From NCBI GenBank assembly GCA_902500755.1, contig CABVRV010000014.1:1-55668 (forward strand): a DNA stretch of 55,668 nt, given 5' to 3'. A program made the translations under genes and the position numbers. Source of the DNA: an uncultured Nitrospira sp. Its GTDB lineage: Bacteria > Nitrospirota > Nitrospiria > Nitrospirales > Nitrospiraceae. This document shows, one piece after another, positions 4,286 to 43,450 of this stretch. How positions within the stretch are numbered: position 1 is the stretch's first letter; every line of letters starts with the position of its first letter. The notes under the pieces are model-generated. The model worked only from the letters and a program-made list of their open reading frames with translations, had not been told where the DNA came from and did no database searches.

Positions 4286-4297
4286 GGAGATCGAGCC

Positions 4298-4714
4298 GTG
4301 TTAGCTCCTAAGAAAGTCAAATTCAGAAAAATGCAAAAAGGCCGGATGACAGGTAAGGCCTATCGTGGAGGACAGATCACTCTGGGTGAATTCGGCTTAA
4401 AGGCTTTGGAGCCCGGGTGGATCACGAGTCGCCAGATTGAAGCAGCACGCATTGCGATTACTCGACACGTAAAGCGTGGTGGGCAGGTCTGGACGCGTAT
4501 TTTCCCGGATAAGCCTATTACCAAAAAGCCAGCGGAAACTCGAATGGGAAAAGGAAAAGGTAATCCTGAATATTGGGTGGCCGTGGTGAAGCCTGGTCGG
4601 ATCCTTTATGAGATGGATGGAGTCACTCCGGAAACTGCTCGAGAGGCGTTTCGGCTTGCGTCTCACAAGTTGCCTATCGCGACAAAATTAGTTGTCCGCG
4701 GTGAGTTTGGCTAA
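4298..4714 (+). CDS. rplP: 50S ribosomal protein L16
   Basis: L16 organises the A-site of the 50S subunit. The protein is 138 aa and starts with GTG ([19 protein letters not shown]). Signatures are [11 protein letters not shown], the [21 protein letters not shown] block and [19 protein letters not shown]. The upstream SD is GAGGAGA at 4282-4288. Confidence 0.97.
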
Positions 4715-4750
4715 GTTCCTGCTGGTGCAAATAGAGATCAAGGTGAGTGT

Positions 4751-4966
4751 ATGGCATTAGACATGAAAGAACTGCGAAATATGACGGTGGGCGAGCTTGC
4801 CGAGAAAGAAAAGCAGCTGGTGCAAGAGCTGTTCAATCTGCGTTTTCAGTTCGGTACCGGACGTCTTGAAAATCCGATGCAGATTCGAAAAACCAAACGG
4901 GATATCGCCCGGGTGAAGACGGTTCTTCAGCAGGGGATTGATCGAACTGAAGCGGCGAAGGGGTAA
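4751..4966 (+). CDS. rpmC: 50S ribosomal protein L29
   Basis: L29 is a small helical-hairpin protein next to L23 at the tunnel exit. The protein is 71 aa with the family blocks KELRNMTVGELAEKEKQL and LFNLRFQFGTGRLENPMQI. The ATG start at 4751 follows AAGGTGAG at 4740-4747. It precedes rpsQ, as in nearly all bacterial spc-region operons. Confidence 0.96.
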   Translation: MALDMKELRNMTVGELAEKEKQLVQELFNLRFQFGTGRLENPMQIRKTKRDIARVKTVLQQGIDRTEAAKG

Positions 4967-4975
4967 AGGACACTT

Positions 4976-5242
4976 ATGGCTGAAGTGGTGAAACGCCGTC
5001 ATTGGTATGGCGATGTGGTCAGTAATAAAATGCAGAAGACGGTCGTCGTGGTGGTGTCAAGATCGGTCGTTCATCCGATCTACAAAAAAGTTCTCAGGCG
5101 AGTGACGAGACTAAAAGCTCATGACGAAAGTGGCGTCTGTAAAGTGGGGGATCGGGTCAAGCTTGTCCAGACGAGACCGCTGAGCAAGGAAAAGAATTGG
5201 CGTGTCGTGCAGGTTATGGAAAAAGGACAGCCTGAAAAGTAG
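4976..5242 (+). CDS. rpsQ: 30S ribosomal protein S17
   Basis: S17 is a primary 16S rRNA binding OB-fold protein. The protein is 88 aa. The conserved part is GDVVSNKMQKTVVVVVSR, then VHPIYKKVLRRVTRLKAHDE and VGDRVKLVQTRPLSKEKNWRV. It lies nine bases after the rpmC stop. Confidence 0.96.
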   Translation: MAEVVKRRHWYGDVVSNKMQKTVVVVVSRSVVHPIYKKVLRRVTRLKAHDESGVCKVGDRVKLVQTRPLSKEKNWRVVQVMEKGQPEK

Positions 5243-5293
5243 AAGAACTTTTTCTCCGGCTTCTACACTCGTGATACCCGCAGGAAGATTGCA

Positions 5294-5662
5294 ATGATTC
5301 AGAATTATACATATATGGATGTGGCTGACAATTCCGGGGCCAAGCAGGCCATGTGCTTTCATGTCTTTGGAGGCACGAGACGGCGCTATGCATCGTTAGG
5401 TGACATTGTGGTGGTGGCTGTCAAGGAAGCGATACCTCAGGCGAGTGTGAAGAAGGGCGACGTGAGTCGAGCGGTCATCGTTCGCACGACAAAGGAAGTT
5501 CGAAGAGAAGATGGGTCGTATATCAAGTTCGATCGGAATGCGTGTGTCCTGATTAATAAAGACGGTGAACCGATTGGAACTCGTATCTTCGGACCTGTTG
5601 CCCGGGAGCTTCGCTGGAAGAAATTCATGAAGATCATTTCCCTGGCACCAGAAGTTTTGTGA
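5294..5662 (+). CDS. rplN: 50S ribosomal protein L14
   Basis: L14 forms part of inter-subunit bridges. The protein is 122 aa, exactly the family length. It begins [20 protein letters not shown] and ends [20 protein letters not shown]. The SD is CAGGAAG at 5281-5287. Confidence 0.98.
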
Positions 5663-5681
5663 AGGGGAGCGAACGAGGAGC

Positions 5682-6014
5682 ATGGTGGAAGCACTGAGAA
5701 AAAGTAGAATTCGTAAAGGTGATATGGTTGTCGTGGTTTCTGGCCGTGAACGAGGGAAGACCGGCAAGGTACTTTCCGTTGACCTCAGGACCGGTAAAGT
5801 GATTGTGGAAAAGTTGAATATTATCAAGCGACACACAAAACCGAATCAGAAAGCGAAGCAGGGGGGCATATTGGAGCGAGAAGCCCCGCTGCAGATTTCA
5901 AACGTCATGTTTTTTTGCCCGGTGACGCAAAAGCCCACGCGAATTGGGGTGCGCCTTTTAGAAGACGGGCGGCGGGTCCGCTTTAGTAAGAAATCCAACG
6001 AGACTGTGGAATAG
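5682..6014 (+). CDS. rplX: 50S ribosomal protein L24
   Basis: L24 is an assembly-initiating 23S rRNA protein with a KOW motif. The KOW part is [20 protein letters not shown] near residues 10-29. It is followed by [15 protein letters not shown] and a ProGln-type core ending in [22 protein letters not shown]. It is 110 aa with an ATG start preceded by GAGGAG at 5675-5680. Confidence 0.97.
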
Positions 6015-6023
6015 GGTTAGGTT

Positions 6024-6671
6024 ATGGCTAAGGAACCGAAAAACCAATCAAGCAAATCATCTGAACGAAAGAGTGCGAAGAAGGACACCTCACCTCCGCA
6101 GTTGGATCAGGGAAGCGAGGAATCGAAGTTTCGCCCAAGGCTTCGCGATATGTATGAACAGCAAGTCATTCCGGCGCTGATGAAAGAGTTTGGGTATAAG
6201 AACGTGATGCAAGTGCCCAAGCTTGAGCGTATGGTGCTGAATGTTGGGATGGGTGAGGCCATTCAGAATGTGAAGCTCTTAGAGGGTGCCGTAACTGAAT
6301 TGGGAATGATTACAGGGCAAAAGCCAGTTGTCACGAGAGCGAAAAAAGCCATTGCTGGTTTCAAGCTGAGGCAAGGATTGCCGATTGGTGCCAAAGTGAC
6401 GCTCCGGAGTCGACGGATGTATGAATTCTTCGATCGGTTGGTATCGTTGGCACTGCCTCGTATCCGTGACTTCCGAGGGGTATCCCCCAAAGCGTTCGAT
6501 GGTCGGGGTAATTATACGCTTGGGTTGAAAGAACAGCTGATCTTTCCGGAAATCAAGTACGATGAAGTGGCATCCATTCATGGCATGGATATTACTGTGG
6601 TCACCACAGCCAAGACGAACGACGAAGGAAAGGCTCTTTTGAAACATCTTGGAATGCCGTTCCGCGCGTGA
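6024..6671 (+). CDS. rplE: 50S ribosomal protein L5 with N-terminal extension
   Basis: L5 binds 5S rRNA and contacts P-site tRNA. Family core begins near residue 38 ([20 protein letters not shown]) and continues with [33 protein letters not shown] and [21 protein letters not shown]. The protein is 215 aa against about 180 in most bacteria. The first 37 or so residues are a Lys/Ser/Glu-rich low-complexity segment ([16 protein letters not shown]). The ATG at 6024 has GGTTAGG nearby. No internal ATG lies close to the core start, so the extension is probably translated. Confidence 0.95.
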
Positions 6672-6717
6672 GGATGGTGGGGGTAGCGATAGTGTTTTTG
6701 GATGGGAGGGGTAATTT

Positions 6718-6903
6718 GTGTCACGATTAGCGCTGAGAAATAAGGCAGCGACAAAGCAGAAGTTCTCCACTCGAGAGTATCACCGCTGTGCTGTCTGCGG
6801 TCGAGTGCGTGGCTATCTTCGTCGATTTCGAATGTGTCGAATTTGTTTTCGCATGATGACGTTGCGTGGGGAGATTCCCGGAGTTCGGAAATCGAGCTGG
6901 TAG
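6718..6903 (+). CDS. rpsN: 30S ribosomal protein S14, zinc-binding type
   Basis: S14 is needed for late 30S assembly. This is the short 61-aa form with a CxxC...CxxC zinc ribbon (CAVCGR and CRIC around residues 23-43). It starts with GTG at 6718 after GGAGGGG at 6704-6710. It occupies the standard position between rplE and rpsH. Confidence 0.95.
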
Positions 6904-6952
6904 CTGATACTCTCGCGCTGATGACTGCTAAAAGAGAATAGAAGGGGATAGC

Positions 6953-7348
6953 ATGGTTACCGATCCAATCGGCGATCTTCTAGTTCGTTTGAAGAATGGT
7001 GCTCAGCGACGTTTTGAAACAGTCACGGTTCCCACTTCAAAATTGAAACGAGCCATTTTAGAAATTTTGAAGCGGGAAGGGTATGTCGACTCAATCGAAG
7101 ATGAGGTGCGGGATGGGCATCCTGTTCTGAACGTGCGGCTTCGATATATAGGCGAAGGACAGCCTATGATTACGGGGTTGGAGCGCATTAGTAAACCAGG
7201 GCGCCGTGTCTACGTTGGTAGTGAGGATATCAAAAAAGTTCGCAATGGTATTGGCATATCCATTCTCTCTACCTCGAAGGGGATTATGACTGATCAGGAA
7301 TCTCGCAAAATTCATCTCGGAGGCGAGGTTCTTTGTTCGGTGTGGTAA
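6953..7348 (+). CDS. rpsH: 30S ribosomal protein S8
   Basis: S8 is a primary binder of 16S helix 21 and, in enterobacteria, the spc-operon repressor. The protein is 131 aa. It begins MVTDPIGDLLVRLKNGAQRR and ends with the diagnostic block GIGISILSTSKGIMTDQESR then GGEVLCSVW. The SD is AAGGGGA at 6942-6948. Confidence 0.97.
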   Translation: MVTDPIGDLLVRLKNGAQRRFETVTVPTSKLKRAILEILKREGYVDSIEDEVRDGHPVLNVRLRYIGEGQPMITGLERISKPGRRVYVGSEDIKKVRNGIGISILSTSKGIMTDQESRKIHLGGEVLCSVW

Positions 7349-7384
7349 ATCGGTTCAATCTCGATTGAAGGATAGAAATACGTT

Positions 7385-7921
7385 ATGTCTCGCATTGGGA
7401 AAAAACCAATTGCCATTCCTGGTGGAGTGGAAGTCAAAGTCGCGGGATCCACGGTGTCGGTCAAGGGGCCACTCGGGAAGTTAGATTGGTCTCTCGTGCA
7501 TGGGGTGAAGGTGGCGGTCAGTAATGGCCAGCTCATTGTCGATCGTGCAAACGATGATCGAAAGGTGAGGGCGTTGCATGGCCTGACTCGTGCTGAGCTG
7601 AACAATATGATTCAGGGTGTTACAAAAGGTTACGAACGTTCGCTCGAAATTACCGGGGTCGGGTACAAGACTCAGCTTCAGGGTCGGACGTTAAGCTTCA
7701 ATGTTGGATACATTAATCCGGTGATCTATCAAGTGCCGGCAGGTATCGATGTAAAGGTTGATAAGCAGACGCTGATCAACCTCAAGGGAGTTGATAAGCG
7801 GTTGGTAGGTCAGGTTGCAGCTGACCTGCGTGCCATTAAACCGCCGGATGTCTATAAGCAAAAAGGTGTCCGGTATGCTGGTGAAATCTTGCGGAAAAAA
7901 GAAGGCAAGACAGGGAAGTAG
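7385..7921 (+). CDS. rplF: 50S ribosomal protein L6
   Basis: L6 sits near the sarcin-ricin loop and the factor-binding site. The protein is 178 aa. It starts MSRIGKKPIAIPGGVEVKV and has two repeated domains. The C-terminal signature is KPPDVYKQKGVRYAGEILRKKEGKTGK. It is followed nine bases later by rplR. Confidence 0.97.
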   Translation: MSRIGKKPIAIPGGVEVKVAGSTVSVKGPLGKLDWSLVHGVKVAVSNGQLIVDRANDDRKVRALHGLTRAELNNMIQGVTKGYERSLEITGVGYKTQLQGRTLSFNVGYINPVIYQVPAGIDVKVDKQTLINLKGVDKRLVGQVAADLRAIKPPDVYKQKGVRYAGEILRKKEGKTGK

Positions 7922-7930
7922 GAACTGACG

Positions 7931-8296
7931 ATGAATGCGGCAAACAAGGTTCAACAACTTGAGCGACGACGACGGCGAGTGCGACAAGTCATTCTAGGGA
8001 CGGCAGAGCGACCACGATTGAACGTCTTTAGAAGCACGGCTCATATCTATGCCCAAATTATCGATGATATTCGGGGTACGACGCTGGCTGCTGCCTCATC
8101 TCTTGATAAGGCGCTTCGTAAAACCCTCAAGTCAACTGGTGGAATTGAAGCGGCCAAAGCAGTTGGCAAACTAATAGCGGATCGTGCCAAGGCTGCAAAG
8201 GTCACAGCGGTTGTTTTTGACCGAGGGGGGCGGATGTATCACGGTCGTATCAAAGCCCTTGCGGATGCATCCCGTGAAGGGGGATTGAAATTTTAG
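7931..8296 (+). CDS. rplR: 50S ribosomal protein L18
   Basis: L18 binds 5S rRNA together with L5 and L25. The protein is 121 aa. Core signatures are [33 protein letters not shown], and the C-terminal [27 protein letters not shown]. The ATG at 7931 follows the rplF stop closely. Confidence 0.96.
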
Positions 8297-8382
8297 GCTG
8301 AGATGGGGCCAGAGGCGAGTATGGTAACACCGGTAAGTCTCTTAATGAACTGTCAGCGAACTTAGGACTGAGGGGTACGAGC

Positions 8383-8892
8383 GTGCGAGTCAATCCCGAT
8401 GAATTGAGCCTGAAAGATAAAGTTGTATTCATCAACCGAGTTGCAAAGGTTGTCAAGGGTGGGAAGCGCTTCAACTTCTGTGCCCTCGTAGTCGTTGGGG
8501 ATGGCCATGGATGGGTCGGAATCGGGAAGGGAAAGGCCGCCGAGGTTCCGGTTGCGATTTCTAAAGCCGTCGAGCAGGCGAAAAAACATCTCGTTCATGT
8601 CCCGCTCAAGGGTGGGACTATCCCGCATGAAGTCCACGGTTTGTTCGGGGCGGAACACGTGTTGCTGAAACCCGCGGTCGATGGAACAGGCATCATCGCT
8701 GGGGGCGCCGTTCGTGCCGTTGTGGAATTAGTCGGTGCCCACAATATCATTGCGAAAACTCTCGGGCGCGGCAATCCATTCAATACAGTTCGCGCCACAC
8801 TCGACGGACTAACCCAGCTAAGAAATTTGGATGATGTCCTTCGCTTCCGCCGGCAAGCTGTCGTCGAAGCGCGGGAAAGGGCAACGGTCTAA
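8383..8892 (+). CDS. rpsE: 30S ribosomal protein S5
   Basis: S5 contributes to mRNA entry and decoding fidelity. The protein is 169 aa. It starts with GTG at 8383, preceded by GAGGGG at 8369-8374. The double-stranded RNA-binding part reads [19 protein letters not shown], then [14 protein letters not shown]. The C-terminal domain includes [20 protein letters not shown]. An 86-base gap precedes it, longer than most gaps in this operon; no other gene is seen there. Confidence 0.97.
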
Positions 8893-9114
8893 ATGAGTGC
8901 AGCACAATCATCAACAAAAACTCCTCGGTCGAAAGTGAACAACGTGCGAGTAACACTGAAGCGAAGTCCAATCGGGACACCAGAGCGCCATCGCCTTGTC
9001 TTGCGTGGCCTAGGTCTCCGACACATTCGTCAAACGGTTGTCCGTCCTGATACACCGCAAGTACGAGGGATGATCCAAAAAGTTGGTTATCTGCTTGAGG
9101 TTGGCAAGCCATGA
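8893..9114 (+). CDS. rpmD: 50S ribosomal protein L30
   Basis: L30 is a small, non-universal 50S protein. The protein is 73 aa; the conserved part begins at [20 protein letters not shown] and continues [21 protein letters not shown] short Ser/Thr-rich segment of about 17 residues precedes it. It starts immediately after the rpsE stop and overlaps rplO by four bases (ATGA). Confidence 0.95.
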
Positions 9115-9560
9115 ATCTTCATGAATTGGCCCCAGCAAGAGGGGCAAAAAAGCGACGAAAGCGTATTGGGCGCGGACCTGGTTCCGGTCATGGAAAAACT
9201 GCCACCAAAGGGCATAAAGGGATACTGGCTCGATCCGGGGGAGGTAAGCGCCCAGGCTTCGAGGGTGGACAGATGCCGTTGGTGCGTCGGCTTCCGAAGT
9301 TTGGTTTCACAAACCCATCCAGAGTGGAATATGCCATCGTCAACCTGACAAGTCTTGCAGATTGGACAGGGAGCGAGACAATCACTCCGCAGGCGATGGT
9401 TGATGCCGGGTTAGTGAAGCGGAAAAAGCGACCGATCAAGATTTTAGGTAATGGCGAGCTAAAGAAGCCTCTCGTCGTTCAGGCTCATAAGTTCAGTAAG
9501 TCGGCAGAGGCGAAGATCCAAGCGGCCGGAGGGCGAGTCGAGGTTATCGGCGGTGCTTGA
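9111..9560 (+). CDS. rplO: 50S ribosomal protein L15
   Basis: L15 is a late assembly protein of the 50S subunit. The protein is 149 aa. It begins [20 protein letters not shown] and has the Gly/Arg-rich extended loop [17 protein letters not shown], then [18 protein letters not shown]. The C-terminal domain ends [15 protein letters not shown]. It overlaps secY by eight bases. Confidence 0.97.
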
Positions 9561-34567: not shown

Positions 34568-35097
34568 GGCGTCCTCCCATCGTTGGAGTGAGCTGTCGTG
34601 TGTGCGGCGCGATTCTGAGACCAGTTCAGCTCGCTGATAAGCTTCGAGCTTTGCGATCAAAAGAGATGATAGGGGAATGGGGATGGAAAGTCGATGAGCC
34701 AGTCGAGGGTACTGAGAGATGGATTTGAGAAAGAAACAACGGTACCGTAAGGCTTCTCATCTCTAACCAGCGGTCGTGACAGATTGACTGATTCCCTACG
34801 AAGTTTGATAATGCGCGGCGTCGGTGCAGGGATTTGTAACTCGAAATTGAAAAACCCATTCCCGGTGTTGCGTCCAAAAGGACGATCGTGTGAGCTGGTG
34901 AAACCATGAACGGGGGTGACCATAATCGCAGGCCCTTCGACAATCTCAGGGTGAGTGGATTCTGACAAGAATTTTCTGGATGCCGCCATATGAGGAAACG
35001 AAGAACTTGATTTTAATGACTCTATGCAGCTGTCGACAAATGGCCATACGTTGATGATCAGGAACCGTCAAACAGAGTGCAATTGAGGAGGTGCTCC
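34568..35097. other. 530-base intergenic region
   Basis: The region separates the GMC gene (minus) from the unknown gene at 35098 (plus). Minus-strand frames of about 100 codons exist (34626-34943, 34657-34989) but lack a convincing SD or family features. At 34933-34958 there is a copy of the short element whose minus-strand reading gives STHPEIVEGP, a sequence seen as a dispersed repeat in many genomes. No RNA gene was recognised. Confidence 0.5.
34933..34958. repeat. dispersed STHPEIVEG-type element
   Basis: The plus strand reads CCCTTCGACAATCTCAGGGT and then GAGTGG. It closely matches the widespread extragenic sequence that yields spurious 'S(S/T)HPE(L/I)VEGP' peptides in many genomes. 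I recognise the element from general knowledge. Only one copy was noticed in this window. Confidence 0.45.
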
Positions 35098-35973
35098 ATG
35101 GCATCCAAAGATACGATTAGGTCATCAACTCTTAGCACCCCTGTGCCCTTAGATATGATCGAAGCCTGGCTTCGAGGAGAGTACCTTATCAGTCAGAATG
35201 AGAGCAGCGGATACGAACTACTAGGTTATAGCCTTATGCTAAGGGGGCTTTATGTTTATACGGTGACTATAAAAAATGAAGAGGCAGGGTCTCATGTAGG
35301 AGCGAATGAAAAGTTTCCTAAAGATTTTTCAAAAACAATTGCAGCTTGGGGTATCTGCAAGATTGACCTGAGGGATGGAGATATTCTGTTTCACGGAATT
35401 CGCCTTGGGTTGAACACACAGCGGCATAACGACCTTAACAAAGACCAGCTTGATGATATCAAGCATGTAGCGTGGTATTCGATTTTTTCCAAGCTTACAA
35501 GAGTACCGGGATCTCAAGATCCGGACATGTATTTTGGATATGTTCTCGTTCCTCTTAACAAGGACTCTGTCACCTACGACACATTCAGATGGTATTCGCT
35601 AATGGAATATAATCGTAAGACTAAGGGGGATACGGATGAGAAAAGCAAGCATAATGACCCGTGGATAGGCTTTGAGCTGCCAATAACGAGAGATGCGGAC
35701 CTCAAACTAATGTTCACTCAAGCCTACTCTAAAGATTTTAGAGTCGCACTCTGCAATTATCTCATGGCCATAGAGGAAGATCTTGATCGCCCTAAACTTA
35801 AAAATAAAGATGAAGTCAAAGCTATTGGCCACATTAAGATGGAACAGTGGAAGGGTAATATGCGTTCTGGCGAATTGCACCCAGTGAATCCTGCCACCTC
35901 CGCGTTACAACGTCCTGGAGTACTGAATCTTTTCCCTCTTTTGGTAGACAATCTGGGATTTGAAGCGACGTAA
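35098..35973 (+). CDS. uncharacterised protein of AAA-linked accessory locus
   Basis: A 290-residue protein from ATG 35098, preceded by GAGGAGG at 35085-35091; the frame runs upstream to 35077. No known domain was recognised. It is soluble-looking with mixed alpha/beta pattern, with aromatic-rich blocks such as YSLMLRGLYVYTVTI and a charged C-terminal third (LDRPKLKNKDEVKAIGHIKM). It lies 15 bases before the AAA+ gene, so the two are probably co-transcribed. Base composition is clearly lower in G+C than in flanking genes (21 of 60 G+C at 35221-35280), suggesting transfer. It might be a partner or substrate-recognition subunit of the ATPase; that is inference. Confidence 0.75.
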   Translation: MASKDTIRSSTLSTPVPLDMIEAWLRGEYLISQNESSGYELLGYSLMLRGLYVYTVTIKNEEAGSHVGANEKFPKDFSKTIAAWGICKIDLRDGDILFHGIRLGLNTQRHNDLNKDQLDDIKHVAWYSIFSKLTRVPGSQDPDMYFGYVLVPLNKDSVTYDTFRWYSLMEYNRKTKGDTDEKSKHNDPWIGFELPITRDADLKLMFTQAYSKDFRVALCNYLMAIEEDLDRPKLKNKDEVKAIGHIKMEQWKGNMRSGELHPVNPATSALQRPGVLNLFPLLVDNLGFEAT

Positions 35974-35988
35974 GTGGAAGTGAAAGCT

Positions 35989-37383
35989 ATGGCTCAAGAA
36001 CTTCGATATGACTATTGCAGCGTACTGAATGGCAACTCGCTGCCTAGTGACTTGCTGAAACCTGAGCAATCGCCAAATCAGGGCTCGTTCAGTACCCTTA
36101 ATCCAACCTATGACAAGGAGGTAAGGAATGCTGAAAACAGGCTGAGGGAATACTTTGGGAGCGCAACAAAAGATACCCCTCCGCTGAACTGTTTAATCTT
36201 GGGGCCTCCAGGTGCGGGGAAAACATTCCTTGCTGAATCTCTTGCGGGTGCCGCACAAGTCGAATACGATGAAGTCAATGTGTCGCTTATGAGCGATCCT
36301 CAGGAATTGTTGGGGCAAATACGCAAGCGAAAAGATGACAGGCCGAAATTTTTGTTCATTGACGAATTTGACGTTACAATTGGAGGGTCGTCGGTCACGC
36401 GCTTTTTGCTCGAGCCAATGACAAACAAAAAAGAATGTTTTAAGACGGCATTTGTTTTTTCAGGTAGTTATCTTAAAAGCAAAAGCATACTAAACCGGCT
36501 CAATGGCAATCTAACCGATTTCGATCTCACACTTTTCCTTCTGCATCTAATTGGCAGGCAGCCAAATGAAATGTTGCGAGCTCAGCTTATCCAGCTCTAT
36601 GAAATGTGCTGCCTCTATCAGAAAAGTCGCCATGATCTAGCACCCGATGCAGATGTTCTGCAATATCTTAGTCAGCTGCACAAGCTACGAGACTTTCTAT
36701 CTCGTATTAATGGTTTTATTCTCCAGATACCGGATATCGCATCTCCCATGATGATCACGGATAATTCTTTGATTATAGATCGCAGTTTGCTTAATTCAAA
36801 TAGTTCGAAGAGACTGCGCTTGCGCGAATCCAGGACGGCACAAGCTGTCGTCGAGTTTGCTAAAAACATGGAGCCTCAGATGGGAGATCAGAATGATAGG
36901 CCCAGTTTTCCTGTTTTTGGAGACCCGAGTGCATCCCTAGTGGGATTCAAGCACATGCTATTATTGGAACGGCTGAGATTAGTGCTTCAGCTCCTCCGCC
37001 GGCGAATCAAGCAGACGAGCAAGTGTAATCATTCCTACTTCATGGCTCGACAATCTCTGAATTTCCTTGCAATGGTTCCCCTCCACCATAATATTCGCAG
37101 CCTTCGATACATCATTGATCAATGTCTTATTGAAAGATCTTTCTGGAATCCCCATTCCTCTGAATTTATGCAGACGAGCCTTCCTTCTTGTGAGCTGCGA
37201 CTGAATGTTGAGTCGCCCATCCTTGATATGCACATAGCCCCAGAGCCATATTTTTCAAGCCCAAGAGTGCTTTGGGATTTTCTTGGAACGGCGAATAGTG
37301 CTCAGCGAACTGTAGATAACGCCAAGGAATTTAAACCGAAGTGGCTTGAGAATGGAGATGAATTGATCCTCATCAGAGGATAG
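35989..37383 (+). CDS. AAA+ family ATPase, unknown role
   Basis: A 464-residue protein from ATG 35989 (an in-frame GTG lies at 35974). The P-loop GPPGAGKT is at residues 72-79, with LAESLAGA after it. Walker B is FLFIDEFD at 121-128, and the sensor-1 strand is AFVFSGS at 154-160. After the small AAA+ core the C-terminal 250 residues show no recognised domain. They hold a basic stretch (LRLVLQLLRRRIKQTSK) and end in DELILIRG. The gene is AT-rich like its neighbours. It sits between an unknown protein and a channel-like pentapeptide protein. This is a plausible anti-phage or stress module, but the sequence does not prove it. Confidence 0.85.
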   Translation: MAQELRYDYCSVLNGNSLPSDLLKPEQSPNQGSFSTLNPTYDKEVRNAENRLREYFGSATKDTPPLNCLILGPPGAGKTFLAESLAGAAQVEYDEVNVSLMSDPQELLGQIRKRKDDRPKFLFIDEFDVTIGGSSVTRFLLEPMTNKKECFKTAFVFSGSYLKSKSILNRLNGNLTDFDLTLFLLHLIGRQPNEMLRAQLIQLYEMCCLYQKSRHDLAPDADVLQYLSQLHKLRDFLSRINGFILQIPDIASPMMITDNSLIIDRSLLNSNSSKRLRLRESRTAQAVVEFAKNMEPQMGDQNDRPSFPVFGDPSASLVGFKHMLLLERLRLVLQLLRRRIKQTSKCNHSYFMARQSLNFLAMVPLHHNIRSLRYIIDQCLIERSFWNPHSSEFMQTSLPSCELRLNVESPILDMHIAPEPYFSSPRVLWDFLGTANSAQRTVDNAKEFKPKWLENGDELILIRG

Positions 37384-37462
37384 ATATTCTGGCGCTGTTC
37401 GTTTTACATTGCTCAGAAGCACTCAGCAAGGGTGCATGGTGCCAAGTGATCAAGGAGAAAAA

Positions 37463-37513
37463 GTGACAAACCTATTAGACGACTGGTTTGCACCGTTGCT
37501 GGATTACAACTAG
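37463..37513 (+). CDS. possible 16-codon leader frame
   Basis: A very short frame begins with GTG at 37463 after a strong SD (AAGGAG at 37452-37457) and encodes VTNLLDDWFAPLLDYN, ending at TAG 37511-37513. The same frame stays open after the stop to TGA 37613-37615 and reads like coding sequence (FPDIIYSMQYLSQNLDFYA). It may be a leader peptide or the decayed front of a gene before the pentapeptide protein. Support is weak. Confidence 0.3.
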   Translation: MTNLLDDWFAPLLDYN

Positions 37514-37577
37514 AAGGAAGTGGCTTTCCCCGATATCATTTACAGCATGCAATATCTCAGTCAAAACTTGGATTTTT

Positions 37578-39362
37578 ATGCCACTCGGAGGCAGGAAAAT
37601 CCACCTATCACTTGATCAGCTGATGGAAACCATCTCTTCTCTAGAGGCGGTCGACCCTCTCCTGAAATATGAAAAACTCATGAAATGCACGGTGGAAGGT
37701 GACCTGGACTTAAGGCTATGGAATAGGTCGTGCAAGACATTTGAGTTTGAACATTGCCTCTTCAAGGACTCGATCATTGTCGCGGACTCGCCAGCGCTTA
37801 CCGCTGGTGTTCAACGTAATGAAACAAGCTTGGGCCTCCTGTTTACTAATTGCACTTTTGAAGTCCCATTGAGCTGGATAGGTTTGTGTTTTCAGTTCCC
37901 TGTAATGTTCCAATCATGCCGATTCAATCGATACACGGATTTTACCCATAGCGCTTTTTATGACTTTAGTTTCAGGTATTCCAACTTTGATGAAGGTGCC
38001 TATTTTGAAGGTGTTCAATTCCTCCTCCCCAAAATTCTTGTATGGAGTCCAGCTCTACTACTTAATCAGTTTGAGATGGTCACTTTCAAAGGGGGAGCAG
38101 AGTTTGATTATGCTCACTTCGACATTCCCGTTTGCTTTGCCCGCGCCAATTTCTATGAATCCTCGACCTTTCGTCATGTAACATTCAGTTGGTGCGACGG
38201 AGGAAATGGCAAGAAAGTCTGTTTTGATTTTAGGAATGTAGAGATATTTGGCTCCGTGGTATTTCAACGATCACTTATAGGAGTCAGTGCTCCGATAACT
38301 TCAAATGACCAGAGACCGGAGAACGGAAAAATTACGGACGTACCTGTTGAAGCAGACTTTACGTTCGTTCATGTACACAAACGGCATGGTCTCAGCTTTC
38401 ACTCCGAAAATCTTCAGCAGGCCAAGTTTCTAGGCACAAACCTAGATGCATGTTACTTCAACAATGTCGAATGGCCACGGCTACAAACGCATTACCCCTT
38501 AAACCTTCGCAAACTGGAAACCTTAGTACGAAGTAATGCGTCTAACTCCCTGCTCAAGTCTGTCTTATGGTTTCTGCTTTGGAGCTGTGGAATAGCGGTA
38601 TATTTGCTTTGTAGCGCATCTTTAACCGTTCTACGGTTTTTCTCGTATTTGGTGATCCGATACGATACTCGTTCACTCTCAGGACCTCAACAGAGTGCTC
38701 GGGAATGCTCTTGGTGTTCATACGAAGAATACGGGATCTATGACCACTGCTTACAGCAGGAGAAGCAAGAGAAGGTCTTTGATCAAAAATGCCAAAAAGG
38801 GGAACAGGTAAATCCAGAGGTGAAGAAGTGGAGAGGCCAGTGGGCGCTACTGTCCAGGGCCTATCGTGATCTTAAGACTGCCTATGAGGACAACAAAGAT
38901 TATATCTATGCTAGCGATTTCCATTACAGAGAGAAGGAGCTGCGACGAATCAACTGGGAGGTGCCGAGGTCAACTCGCGTCCAGCTTTATCTCTACTGGC
39001 TTGTGAGTGGGTATGGTGAACGAGCCATGCGCCCCCTGGGCTGGTTTGTGCTCGTTCTTCTTTTGGGGGCGGCCATCTATGCATCTGATGGGGATGTCCT
39101 TCTCAAGGCAGCGGCCAGTCCTGCTGCAGCGGGGCAAGGATTAGTAACCTTCATGATACCCCAACCTTTTCCTCTAGAGAAAGCCGATTGGGGAGCCGCT
39201 CTCCGATATAGCGCAGAAACTATGGCATTTCTAAAGCCAGATTTTTTAGACCTGGGGCAAGGCTTAACCTTCGCTCGATGCGTAGCCTGGGCCCAAGCCA
39301 TCACCGGGCCATCCCTCTTTGCCATGTTTGTATTGGCACTCAAGAATAAGCTAAAGCGCTGA
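37578..39362 (+). CDS. pentapeptide-repeat membrane protein, channel-like C-terminus
   Basis: A 594-residue protein if it starts at ATG 37578; the frame is open from TTG 37488 and ATG 37623 is another option, and none has a clear SD. The N-terminal half is a degenerate pentapeptide (F/Y every fifth residue) right-handed beta-helix: e.g. FTHSAFYDFSFRYSNFDEGA and CFARANFYESSTFRHVTF. A membrane segment follows (SVLWFLLWSCGIAVYLLCSA). After a Cys/charged loop comes a two-helix end: PLGWFVLVLLLGAAIYA, a re-entrant-like segment, then WAQAITGPSLFAMFVLALKN. That end resembles a two-helix ion-channel fold, but no TVGYG-like filter is seen. AT-rich. It is the likely membrane component of the accessory locus. 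Confidence 0.8.
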   Translation: MPLGGRKIHLSLDQLMETISSLEAVDPLLKYEKLMKCTVEGDLDLRLWNRSCKTFEFEHCLFKDSIIVADSPALTAGVQRNETSLGLLFTNCTFEVPLSWIGLCFQFPVMFQSCRFNRYTDFTHSAFYDFSFRYSNFDEGAYFEGVQFLLPKILVWSPALLLNQFEMVTFKGGAEFDYAHFDIPVCFARANFYESSTFRHVTFSWCDGGNGKKVCFDFRNVEIFGSVVFQRSLIGVSAPITSNDQRPENGKITDVPVEADFTFVHVHKRHGLSFHSENLQQAKFLGTNLDACYFNNVEWPRLQTHYPLNLRKLETLVRSNASNSLLKSVLWFLLWSCGIAVYLLCSASLTVLRFFSYLVIRYDTRSLSGPQQSARECSWCSYEEYGIYDHCLQQEKQEKVFDQKCQKGEQVNPEVKKWRGQWALLSRAYRDLKTAYEDNKDYIYASDFHYREKELRRINWEVPRSTRVQLYLYWLVSGYGERAMRPLGWFVLVLLLGAAIYASDGDVLLKAAASPAAAGQGLVTFMIPQPFPLEKADWGAALRYSAETMAFLKPDFLDLGQGLTFARCVAWAQAITGPSLFAMFVLALKNKLKR

Positions 39363-39419
39363 ACCTCAATCATGTGATATGGAAGCGGTACTGGGCAGCC
39401 CGCATCGAGGATTTGCCGT

Positions 39420-40010
39420 CTACTCGATGGTGTGCCCTTCCAGGAAGATTGCTTGCTCCAGGGTGCGGAAGAACTGCTGGTAGGGGACTGGGTCTTCGAC
39501 AGCATGGAGGTGGAACTGTGCGCTGGCGCGGACGACGAGTTGCGACTCGTTACGGTCACGGACGGTGACGGTCAGTCGCACCAGGTCGCTGCGGTGATAG
39601 AAGGGTCCCCAGGCTCGGTAGGTTTTGGTGAGAAACAAGAGCGTGTCGGGACGGTACAGGATATAGGACGGATCGAGGAAACTGGGTTGCTCAAGGTCGA
39701 CATATTTCTTGGCAGATATGATCCCTAATTCCTCGTCGAGCACGTCGATCTTGCAGTTTAGGTCCTGCAAGGTCATGACGATCGCCTGGAGCATCTTTCG
39801 CCGGTCTTTGGTATCGAACACACGCGTCTGTGCGGCCCGTACCTTGACTTGACTCTCCTCGGATAACCAGATCTGCGTCCGTGCATCCGATTGATTGTCG
39901 TGCCGCATTTCGTAGGGTGTGCAGGCGGTGAGCAGCGAAACCACAGTGAGCACTGTTGGTAGCAGCATTCGAAAAGGCGTTCGTGTACTCAGCGATCGGT
40001 CGGCGATCAT
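39420..40010 (-). CDS. lipoprotein, paralogue 1 of three
   Basis: A 196-residue lipoprotein with lipobox LLTAC (Cys30). The mature part begins with a stretch including VKVRAAQTRVFDTKDRRKML, then LQDLNCKIDVLDEELGIISA, and ends VPYQQFFRTLEQAIFLEGHT. The same three blocks occur in the next two genes, so the three are paralogues. It starts four bases inside the end of the preceding gene (ATGA) and is last in a four-lipoprotein minus-strand operon. Outer-membrane anchoring is likely; function unknown. Confidence 0.82.
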   Translation of the reverse strand: MIADRSLSTRTPFRMLLPTVLTVVSLLTACTPYEMRHDNQSDARTQIWLSEESQVKVRAAQTRVFDTKDRRKMLQAIVMTLQDLNCKIDVLDEELGIISAKKYVDLEQPSFLDPSYILYRPDTLLFLTKTYRAWGPFYHRSDLVRLTVTVRDRNESQLVVRASAQFHLHAVEDPVPYQQFFRTLEQAIFLEGHTIE

Positions 40011-40471
40011 GGCGAGGCTGTTGACTCCTGAGAGAGAAACAAGGCTCGTTGCAGCGCGGCGAAGAAGTTCTGATAGACCTTCGGGTCTTCGATAGGTTTG
40101 TTGTTGTAAATGGCGTTGGCACGGAAGCTCATCTTCTCTGTCGTCTCCTGCCGCACTGTCACGGTGATTGTGACGACGTCGTAGTAGTTGGGTTCGGCGA
40201 ATCTTGCCGCGGTCACAAGACCAAGTCCTTCATTGGCCCGCTCGATGATGAAACCCAGGTCTTGTAGGGAAGCGATGACGCCGCGAATGGCGGCGTTCCG
40301 GTCCCTGAGGTCGAAGCTCCTGGTTTGGAGACTTCGGATCTTCATCTGTGCCTCCGTCGGGGCGAGCATGTCCGGTGTCGGTTGCGGTGCCGCGCAGCCC
40401 TGGAGGGAGAGGGTTTCGGCGAGCAGGAGGCCTGCGCCGAGCAGAGTGATGTGCATCGCAGATTTATTCAT
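40007..40471 (-). CDS. lipoprotein, paralogue 2 of three
   Basis: A 154-residue lipoprotein with lipobox LQGC (Cys26). It is the shortest of the three paralogues. The shared blocks are IRSLQTRSFDLRDRNAAIRG, SLQDLGFIIERANEGLGLVT and YQNFFAALQRALFLSQE. It has no extra domain between the blocks, so it shows the family core. It lies nine bases after paralogue 3 and overlaps paralogue 1. Confidence 0.82.
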   Translation of the reverse strand: MNKSAMHITLLGAGLLLAETLSLQGCAAPQPTPDMLAPTEAQMKIRSLQTRSFDLRDRNAAIRGVIASLQDLGFIIERANEGLGLVTAARFAEPNYYDVVTITVTVRQETTEKMSFRANAIYNNKPIEDPKVYQNFFAALQRALFLSQESTASP

Positions 40472-40480
40472 GCCATGTCC

Positions 40481-41071
40481 TCAGATTCGATGGGCCTCTA
40501 GGAAGACGGCCTTGGAAAGTTTGGCGAAAAATTGCTGGTAGATTTCCGGGTCTCGGATCATTTCCATATATTGCTCACCGGGCGGGATGTATTGATTGTC
40601 CACTTGACCGTCCCCCTTCCACACGACCCGATAGAACATGATGCGGACTTCCTGGCGGGTGGCTTCGGCATTGAGCGGACGGGAGATGAGGGATGCGGCG
40701 ATCTTTTGATGGAGGTCCACCGGCTGCATGAGCTTTCCAAGGGAGAGAATCAGCACCAATACTTGTCTGACATATTGGCCATACTCGCGAGCGCTGCGTT
40801 CCTTTGTCGCGCGTAGGAAGCCAACCGGCCGCTGGCTTTCTTCGACTTGAAAACCCAAGTCTTGGAGTACGGCGGCTGAGGCCGAGAGGAGTTCCCGTTC
40901 ATTCGGCGTTTCGAACATCCGGGTCTGCATCGTGCGGTTCTTGGGAATGTCCGGCGTCAGTGCGAAGAGCTCGGCCGGCTCGGTAGGGGCGACGCAGCCG
41001 CTCAGGGCCGTCAGGACAAGGATCGCGGCAACCGGTGCACCGGTTCGAACGATGGCGCGGGTCCGTCTCAC
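40481..41071 (-). CDS. lipoprotein, paralogue 3 of three
   Basis: A 196-residue lipoprotein if started at the GTG at 41071 (MRRTRAIVRTGAPVAAILVL), which gives a clean signal peptide and lipobox LSGC. The open frame extends to 41215 but overlaps the upstream gene and is not signal-like. Core blocks: MQTRMFETPNERELLSASAA, LQDLGFQVEESQRPVGFLRA and YQQFFAKLSKAVFLEAHRI. An insert of about 40 residues (REYGQYVRQVLVLILSLGKL) between core blocks includes a hydrophobic segment. It begins seven bases after the BamE-like gene. Confidence 0.78.
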   Translation of the reverse strand: MRRTRAIVRTGAPVAAILVLTALSGCVAPTEPAELFALTPDIPKNRTMQTRMFETPNERELLSASAAVLQDLGFQVEESQRPVGFLRATKERSAREYGQYVRQVLVLILSLGKLMQPVDLHQKIAASLISRPLNAEATRQEVRIMFYRVVWKGDGQVDNQYIPPGEQYMEMIRDPEIYQQFFAKLSKAVFLEAHRI

Positions 41072-41078
41072 CGGCGGA

Positions 41079-41471
41079 TCAGAACTGGGTAGAGTTATAG
41101 GCAAAGTCCCGGACCTTCTTCTCTTCGTCGTACTTGATGATGATGGTGAGGGTCCGTTGGCGCTGCGAGCTCGAACTGTCGCGTGAGGTAGTGCCGAGAA
41201 TGATGATGCTCGCAAAGGATGAGCTGGCCGTGTCCACGCGATCGGTGGAGACCTTGTCGTAGATCCAGACCTCGCGCCGTTTCTCGTCCGTGGTCACGAT
41301 ATTGGGACTCCCGAGCAGTTCGGCTACCTGGGAGGCAGCCATCCCGACCTTGATCTCCCCCTGCACCTTGCCGACAGTGAGGCGGTCTTCCTTGATTTCG
41401 GCCTTGTTGCCACCACAGCCTGCGGCGGTCATGAGCAGACAGAGGCTTAGGATGCTCCAGATCGATTTCAT
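41079..41471 (-). CDS. BamE/SmpA-like small lipoprotein
   Basis: A 130-residue lipoprotein with lipobox AAGC (Cys19). Residues about 40-75 show the SmpA/OmlA-type pattern IKVGMAASQVAELLGSPNIV then EVWIYDK. A Ser-rich middle and a strand-rich end (RTLTIIIKYDEEKKVRDFAY) follow. It is the first gene of the four-lipoprotein operon. True BamE acts in outer-membrane protein assembly; whether this one does is unknown, as the fold is shared by many lipoproteins. Confidence 0.8.
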   Translation of the reverse strand: MKSIWSILSLCLLMTAAGCGGNKAEIKEDRLTVGKVQGEIKVGMAASQVAELLGSPNIVTTDEKRREVWIYDKVSTDRVDTASSSFASIIILGTTSRDSSSSQRQRTLTIIIKYDEEKKVRDFAYNSTQF

Positions 41472-41614: not shown

Positions 41615-43450
41615 ATGCCACCGACTATGTTGCTTAGTTGCGAGTTGCTTGAGAAGAGTTACGGGATCAAACCGTTGTTCACCGGTCTGTCGATCGGACT
41701 CTGCAACGGCGATCATGTCGGATTAATCGGACCCAACGGCTCTGGGAAGTCCACGTTGCTCAAGATATTGGCCGGCCTCGAAGAGCCCGATAACGGGACG
41801 CGATCGGTGCGGCGGCACGTTCGCATCGGCTACGTTCCCCAAGAGCCTTCATTTGGCGAGCAACATTCGGTCGAAGACGTATTGACCAAGGTTTTGCTCG
41901 ATGAGGGGTTCGATCCGCATGAGCAGGGTGGGCGCATAGCCAAAGCCCTTAGCCTCGGTGGATTTGTCGGTTCAGACCAGGCAGTCTCGACATTGTCGGG
42001 AGGATGGAGAAAACGGCTGGCGATCGCGCGGTCGCTGATGCTGGAACCAGACGTGCTGCTCTTGGATGAGCCGACAAACCACCTGGATGTCGAGGGTATC
42101 CTTTGGCTTGAAGGTCTTTTGAAGGCCGAACCCCATGCATTCATTGTCATCAGCCACGACCGGCAGTTCTTGGAATCGGTGACCACCAGGGTTTGGGAAT
42201 TAAACCGCCGATACGCCAACGGGGTCTTTCAGGCGAATGGCCGGTATAGCGAGTTTTTGGAGCAGCGCGACGCGGCGTTACAGGCGCAGGCCGATTATCA
42301 GGCGTCGCTGGCGAATCGGGTACGGCGTGAGGTGGAATGGCTCAGGCGAGGGCCCAAAGCCCGCACGACCAAAGCCAAGGCCCGGATCGATTCCGCAGGG
42401 CGGCTCATCGAAGAGCTTCAGGATATAGAGTCGCGACGGCCGCAAGGGTCGGCCGGGATTGACTTCACGGCTTCCGGACGAAAATCCAAACAATTGTTGG
42501 TTGCGAAGGGGCTTGAAAAATCACTCGGCGGCAAGGCGATCCTATCCGACCTCGATATGTTGTTGGGCCCGGGCGAGCGGATCGGTTTGCTTGGGCCCAA
42601 CGGCAGCGGCAAGACAACGCTGCTGAAGCTCTTGGCCGGTACGCTAGAGCCGGATCGCGGCTCCCTCACGCGCGCCGATCGGTTGCGAGTGGTGACTTTC
42701 GAGCAACATCGTGAATCGTTGGACCAACAAGCGACCTTGCGCCGAGCTCTGGCTCCGGCCGGCGGCGATGCCGTCGTCTATCAGGATCGGTCCGTCCATC
42801 TTGTCTCATGGGCCAAGCGCTTTCTCTTTGCACCTGAGCAACTGGATCTGCCGGTCTCACGCCTCTCCGGTGGAGAACAGGCTCGATTGCTGATCGCGCA
42901 GTTGATGCTGCAACCCGCTGATCTCTTGATCCTCGACGAGCCGACGAACGACCTCGACATTCCGACGCTCGATGTGTTGGAAGACAGTTTGCTGGAATTT
43001 GCCGGCGCACTTGTTCTCGTGACGCATGACCGGTGGCTCTTGGACCGTGTCTCCACCAGACTCCTTGCGCTGGACGGGATGGGTCGTGCCGAGTGGTTCG
43101 CTGATTATGCTCAATGGGAAGCGGTACAGGAGAACAAGGCTTTGGAGGAGAGCCGGCCATCGTCTCCACGAGACCGTGCGGCGAAGCCGAGTTCTAGTAA
43201 GCGGAAAGGTCTCTCATACAACGAACAGAAGGAATGGGACCAGATTGAAGCAAAGATTCTCGATGCGGAGGAGGTTGCCGCTGCTTGCCACGCGGGGGTG
43301 AACGATCCAACGATCGTCTCATCCGCCGACGTGCTTCAAGAACGATACGCCGCGCTGCACGCCGCGCAGGCCGAGGTTGAGCGGCTCTATAAGCGCTGGG
43401 CGGAGTTGGACGAGAAACGAGCGCAATTAATCAGCGGCGCGCAACTCTAG
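41615..43450 (+). CDS. uup: ABC-F ATPase, Uup type
   Basis: A duplicated ABC ATPase without membrane domains, about 611 aa from ATG 41615 (ATG 41627 also possible; the frame is open from 41540). Walker A motifs are GPNGSGKS and GPNGSGKT, signatures LSGGWRKRLAIARS and LSGGEQARLLIAQ, and Walker B LLLDEPTNHLD and LILDEPTNDLD. A linker separates the cassettes. The C-terminal coiled-coil (LSYNEQKEWDQIEAKILDAE onward) marks the Uup subfamily, implicated in DNA/ribosome-related housekeeping. It is divergent from the lipoprotein operon. Confidence 0.92.
   Translation: MPPTMLLSCELLEKSYGIKPLFTGLSIGLCNGDHVGLIGPNGSGKSTLLKILAGLEEPDNGTRSVRRHVRIGYVPQEPSFGEQHSVEDVLTKVLLDEGFDPHEQGGRIAKALSLGGFVGSDQAVSTLSGGWRKRLAIARSLMLEPDVLLLDEPTNHLDVEGILWLEGLLKAEPHAFIVISHDRQFLESVTTRVWELNRRYANGVFQANGRYSEFLEQRDAALQAQADYQASLANRVRREVEWLRRGPKARTTKAKARIDSAGRLIEELQDIESRRPQGSAGIDFTASGRKSKQLLVAKGLEKSLGGKAILSDLDMLLGPGERIGLLGPNGSGKTTLLKLLAGTLEPDRGSLTRADRLRVVTFEQHRESLDQQATLRRALAPAGGDAVVYQDRSVHLVSWAKRFLFAPEQLDLPVSRLSGGEQARLLIAQLMLQPADLLILDEPTNDLDIPTLDVLEDSLLEFAGALVLVTHDRWLLDRVSTRLLALDGMGRAEWFADYAQWEAVQENKALEESRPSSPRDRAAKPSSSKRKGLSYNEQKEWDQIEAKILDAEEVAAACHAGVNDPTIVSSADVLQERYAALHAAQAEVERLYKRWAELDEKRAQLISGAQL

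Follow-up and report, generated by a model that had tools for sequence, protein, structure and literature searches.

A possible conflict-module core in Nitrospira: an adjoining gene pair for a soluble protein and an AAA+ ATPase beside the RyR-linked clade, followed by different membrane protein genes

Three intact, co-directional open reading frames, here termed A, B and C, occupy positions 35098–39362 of the forward strand of a 55,668-nucleotide stretch of DNA from an uncultured Nitrospira sp., the whole of which is referred to as the window. Genes A and B adjoin in the window and again in a second genome of the same family (G040), in which a different membrane protein gene follows them, and sequence comparison places the AAA+ ATPase encoded by gene B beside the RyR-linked AAA+ ATPases, as their sister. 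We consider the chances about even that A-B is a conflict module in which A senses, B transduces and a swappable membrane protein executes. More specifically, and tentatively, A-B might be the core of a conflict system that is as yet undescribed, a reading to which we give somewhat less than an even chance; it would combine an AAA+ ATPase of the RyR clade after loss of both the RyR domain and the N-terminal region, a new sensor family represented by A, and interchangeable effectors (SLATT or pentapeptide half-channels).

Gene A (35098–35973, 291 aa) begins with an ATG downstream of GAGGAGG. It is followed after 15 bp by gene B (35989–37383), which encodes a 464-aa AAA+ ATPase and for which GTG 35974 is a possible alternative start. 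Gene C (37578–39362) encodes a 594-aa protein with pentapeptide repeats and a C-terminal membrane part, and lies 194 bp downstream of B, lacking an obvious ribosome site, so that the spacing is tight for A-B only. The results from BLASTN analysis of the window against the L108 locus indicate that a genome of the same genus (G085) keeps both flanks of the region, with 84.4, 86.9 and 86.1% DNA identity in the three nearest blocks. This homology stops at 34596 and resumes at 39420, and the edges of an island missing from the same site in G085 (34597–39419) were therefore set at 34596/34597 and 39419/39420. At this position G085 carries 1850 bp of unrelated DNA including a PIN_3-domain ORF (E value 3.5e-17), which makes this a site that holds alternative cassettes. 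The G+C content of the island is 0.455, whereas the 4.2-kb stretches of the window have a mean of 0.527 (sd 0.026) and the lowest of them begins at 34601; thus, the low G+C exceeds line-to-line noise. The per-gene G+C of A, B and C is 0.43–0.47, and their GC3 is 0.43–0.48 vs 0.62–0.73 in eight measured flanking genes. The first-pass annotation had regarded the three co-directional, low-G+C genes as an island, which both the base composition and the edges set by G085 confirm, and its base counts (21 of 60 at 35221–35280 and 40 of 60 at 42601–42660) are exact. Horizontal acquisition of the A-B-C island is supported. The left side of the island contains a short dispersed repeat (34865–34983) that is matched in 11 of 39 genus genomes, including the window's own (contig C64). 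Beyond the right edge, on the reverse strand (39420–41215), there are three adjacent lipoprotein-like genes, apparently tandem paralogues, which by eye have QTR.F and LQDL stretches in common.

Based on hydropathy, the product of gene A is soluble, with no hydrophobic segments. It has no family in Pfam, PADLOC, NCBIfam or PHROGs, and the only match across all searches made was the partner copy in G040 (31% identity). The leader and ribosome site of A (35077–35101, CAATTGAGGAGG) are also common to the window and G040; the local alignment of the two leaders scores 30, which none of 200 shuffles equalled (best shuffle 27). An exact-peptide search of genome contigs gave 21 pattern matches, none of which was confirmed, while profile searches of viral contigs and of 35 genomes reached through loci, and a tblastn search of plasmids, gave no match. 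The best E value of the A profile against the PDB was 1.4. No A-B was found in 188 genomes of one other phylum, the single weak match of the A profile (0.007), which spans 39 columns in an AAA ATPase ORF, being set aside as chance. The idea that A arose by separation of the N-terminal domain from a RyR-linked ATPase was rejected (hhalign probability 0.04%).

In the product of gene B, the AAA core (PF00004; E value 6e-10) is the sole Pfam assignment, together with a weak bpMoxR match (0.021). The PADLOC matches of B are at the level of the P-loop only, the best being IetA (E value 3.2e-6) over 63 residues (72–134), and neither A nor C has a PADLOC match, in agreement with the earlier remark that the set is unlike described systems. 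The window and G040 copies of B share 40% identity and keep the ATPase motifs. The R-finger stretch of B, which we took to resemble that of AAA+ proteins with RyR domains, served as the starting point for comparison. A motif scan with this R-finger led to one viral contig, and a tblastn search with its protein led to two plasmid proteins, one of which is annotated as "RyR domain-containing protein"; L130, L131 and L008 are also of the RyR-linked AAA+ kind. The R-finger motif K..DF.SR is present in both B proteins, in all three of the first RyR-linked rows, and in L059 and L008, but in none of 16 other AAA+ rows. The G040 copy fails the sensor-2 pattern as written, and reads HNVRSLKFM. A 21-row tree separates B and six RyR-linked proteins from 13 generic AAA+ proteins with a support of 100/100 and makes B the sister of the six; L010, L015 and L016, each of which has two AAA domains, were omitted from it, and L059 is represented by its longer copy L130. 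A profile of the six RyR-linked rows scores the two B proteins at 58.1 and 49.6 bits, vs 41.1 and 41.6 for a generic seven-row profile. Profile-profile scores separate the two groups poorly (121.8 vs 114.6), and single-sequence comparison does not separate the clades, the three first RyR-linked rows ranking below most generic rows. Most of the C-terminal half of B aligns with the lid part of the RyR-linked clade (R-finger, sensor-2, and L.MH), and the initial description of B as a small-core AAA+ protein with an unknown C-terminal domain is therefore not supported. The P-loop is at residue 427–635 in the six relatives vs approximately residue 72 in B.

According to Pfam, there is no RyR domain in A, B, C or two flanking genes. 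A RyR search of 174 family genomes gave no match, yet neither did its control, and absence is not shown thereby. A RyR domain or gene is seen in two of the six RyR-linked relatives, the neighbours of the other four having been scanned in part; it is fused to the ATPase by annotation in L127 and adjacent by Pfam in L131. At the latter locus (G322, 4293–9342), the gene of a long RyR-linked AAA+ ATPase has a RyR gene (PF02026; E value 6.3e-20) directly before it and a DUF4062-STAND-TPR gene behind it, and the three may constitute a separate conflict locus. Passages of PMC13232231 describe an action of phage proteins with RyR domains on cADPR immune signals. In genome contigs the B profile reached at least 50 loci (P-loop patterns), and L008 was the sole carrier of the clade motif among 18 loci tested. 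The viral scans gave no full-length relative of B, and plasmids and phages at most one generic AAA.

Of 176 family genomes, two carry A and two carry B; in each case they are the window's own genome and G040, and the genes adjoin in both. Among 270 genomes of the class, a profile of A reaches two. In a 396-genome sample of the phylum, 29 genomes pass an E value of 1e-6 with the B profile, with long matches in the window genome and G040 only (902 and 946 bits; third best, 44.8). The G040 cassette has a G+C of 0.47–0.48 vs 0.51–0.61 in six neighbours, and in both A-B loci the next co-directional gene encodes a membrane protein and has a similarly low G+C. None of the open-access papers searched describes A-B.

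The third gene of G040 encodes a small membrane protein of 159 aa, approximately 35–36 bp behind B, and is not a pentapeptide protein. The layout first proposed, a soluble protein, an AAA+ ATPase and a membrane protein, thus describes the window correctly but is not a fixed trio, the third gene being replaced in G040. The 159-aa protein has no family match in Pfam, PADLOC or NCBIfam at E values up to 1. A search of 296 phylum genomes gave relatives in G158 (23% identity; E value 4.1e-15) and G213 (22%; E value 2.3e-6); further matches in G243 and G254, which cover some 50 residues within long frames next to genes for sigma factors, were dismissed as chance. The G158 and G213 relatives match NCBIfam SLATT_4 at E values of 7.9e-8 and 1.1e-6, with 32.3 and 28.5 bits against a curated cut-off of 55. 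We describe the G040 protein as putatively SLATT_4-like, a likeness that passes through these two sub-cut-off relatives, its own sequence having no SLATT match. The G158 copy is located near type I RM genes. In G213 (L122, 114–4137), the SLATT_4-like small membrane gene follows GajA and GajB of a Gabija system on the same strand (PADLOC E values 2e-178 and 2.4e-249). No plasmid match was found for any of the three copies. SLATT proteins have been predicted to be nucleotide-responsive, pore-forming effectors (passages of PMC7159879), and phage defence by DRT10 depends on a SLATT gene (passages of PMC12632851).

For gene C, the ATG at 37578 is a likelier start than the TTG at 37488 given by the ORF lister, because it aligns with the start region of the nearest relative (MPLG...). 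The product contains pentapeptide repeats (PF13576; E value 4.6e-8) and hydrophobic stretches near residues 329–355, 483–509 and 568–586 (hydropathy); of its earlier designation as a channel-like pentapeptide protein, these features show the pentapeptide part but not the channel character. C is matched in 7 of 246 phylum genomes, its own counted, and its relatives are 41–43% identical; the C-terminal part matches 73 plasmid records, mainly from Streptomyces. The relatives of C at all six other loci are unaccompanied by A or B: A has no match there, and the sole match of B is weak (1.2e-4) and falls in a Lon-like ORF in L090. Hence, the co-occurrence that the first-pass annotation proposed as a check holds for the A-B pair but not for the trio. 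With relatives standing apart from the pair, C is a separately mobile module, and this distribution, along with the gap and the want of an obvious ribosome site, means that its link to A-B may be chance. The position of C behind A-B is suggestive of membership, of which we are less sure than of the A-B pair.

In G098 and G067 (L091, 5676–6521, and L092, 10125–10967, respectively), a gene for a protein of 281–282 aa precedes the C relative. The L091 copy has no Pfam match; the FVEV stretch of the product might resemble nuclease folds. In G067 (L092, 6819–9946) a transposase-like ORF or IS (8178–8945) lies between the two parts of the C relative, and in G104 (L090, 6622–9126) the relative is in two ORFs, the second of which has a run of collagen-like G-D/R-x repeats ahead of the last membrane segment. 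The spacer between B and C in the window (37384–37577) contains a 16-codon ORF on the forward strand, from GTG 37463 to the stop at 37513, downstream of a good ribosome site (AAGGAGAA), which is possibly a leader peptide or a remnant. A structured RNA in this spacer was considered and rejected (folding z -0.35; no Rfam match).

Because the third gene differs in G040 and the relatives of C are found elsewhere on their own, the unit appears to be A-B plus an exchangeable membrane gene. In the proposed mechanism, A-B would be the constant part of a conflict module that spreads horizontally. A would be a soluble sensor or adaptor, and B, probably as an oligomer, would respond to a cue read by A or to a ligand that A delivers. 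Binding or hydrolysis of ATP by B would then lead to release or activation of the membrane protein encoded next door, i.e., the SLATT_4-like protein in G040 or, if it is indeed a partner, the pentapeptide protein C in the window. The active membrane protein may permeabilise or disturb the inner membrane, such that growth of the infected or stressed cell stops, as in abortive infection; phage would be a plausible trigger, and the cassette would have a role in defence. We infer this order of sensing, transduction and execution from the conservation of A and B as a pair, the occupation of one slot by two different membrane proteins, the published roles of SLATT, the link of RyR domains to immune nucleotides, and the island status of the locus. 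Counted against a conflict module are the total of two A-B loci, with none in the further 35 and 188 genomes searched with the A profile, the loose tie of C to the pair, the sub-cut-off SLATT scores, and the finding of no known defence system beside the window copy; in addition, two single-sequence AlphaFold2 models had mean pLDDT values of only 33.4 and 34.9.

The nearest alternative is a self-contained pair with passer-by membrane genes: A-B might be a two-gene unit, e.g., a chaperone-like AAA+ ATPase with a client or adaptor acting in stress or metabolism, next to which unrelated neighbours arrive through turnover of the island. The occurrence of C alone elsewhere, the gap ahead of it, the two different third genes and the use of the same site by other cassettes, such as the PIN-domain gene of G085, are all in keeping with such a unit. 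However, a co-directional membrane gene with a G+C about as low as that of A-B comes next in two of two loci, and the family to which the third gene of G040 putatively belongs has been linked to conflict systems in the literature; we regard this alternative as rather unlikely, albeit one to be taken seriously. Patchy distribution and the broken C relatives of G067 and G104 would also suit a decaying island remnant without function, but all three ORFs of the island are long and intact, and the ATPase motifs persist between B copies only 40% identical, which makes a remnant very improbable.

A nucleotide-signal system, in which A makes or binds a nucleotide derivative, B reads it, as its RyR-linked relatives may do, and the membrane protein opens, would draw on the RyR domains fused or adjacent to members of the sister clade of B (L127 and L131), and on the prediction, in passages of PMC7159879, that SLATT proteins answer nucleotide signals. 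Yet the Pfam search of the three proteins gave no nucleotide domain, be it RyR, TIR, cyclase or another, and A matches nothing known and is unrelated to the N-terminal stretch found in the RyR-linked ATPases, so that we think this system improbable, although less so than a remnant. If the preferred reading of A-B as a conflict module is true, conflict systems with a membrane effector as their last step would gain an AAA+ transducer type and a new sensor family. SLATT and membrane pentapeptide proteins, by sharing the slot behind A-B, would join one functional class, which could be tested by swapping them. Moreover, the little-studied RyR-linked ATPases would be tied to a simpler, two-gene core.

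Among known proteins, the RyR-linked AAA+ ATPases (e.g., WP_264051538.1 from Methylobacterium sp. FF17) have the motifs E.N.S, DEFD, L.PM, F.F.G, K..DF.SR, RSL and L.MH in common with B. They differ from it in having 430–630 residues ahead of the P-loop, a region which we take to be a PfkB-like fold, where B has only about 70. Furthermore, a RyR domain or gene accompanies two of six of them, whereas B has none and instead adjoins the unrelated gene A. IetAS resembles the cassette in placing an AAA+ ATPase in a small operon, but the similarity of B to IetA is confined to the segment given above, and the cassette has no IetS protease partner. The MoxR-vWA ternary conflict systems, as described in passages of PMC7159879, combine an AAA+ core with interchangeable effectors that include pentapeptide repeats; their vWA partner is not matched in A, B or C, and B is MoxR-like only by its weak bpMoxR match. 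The SLATT-effector systems, both GTPase-centric and DRT10, resemble the G040 copy in pairing a core for sensing or transduction with a small SLATT effector in the membrane. Their GTPase, reverse transcriptase, SLOG and SMODS partners were not found with A-B, and the window cassette has a pentapeptide protein in the effector slot instead. The layout of sensor, AAA+ ATPase and exchangeable membrane effector is therefore of a kind already known, and what would be new is the A-B core.
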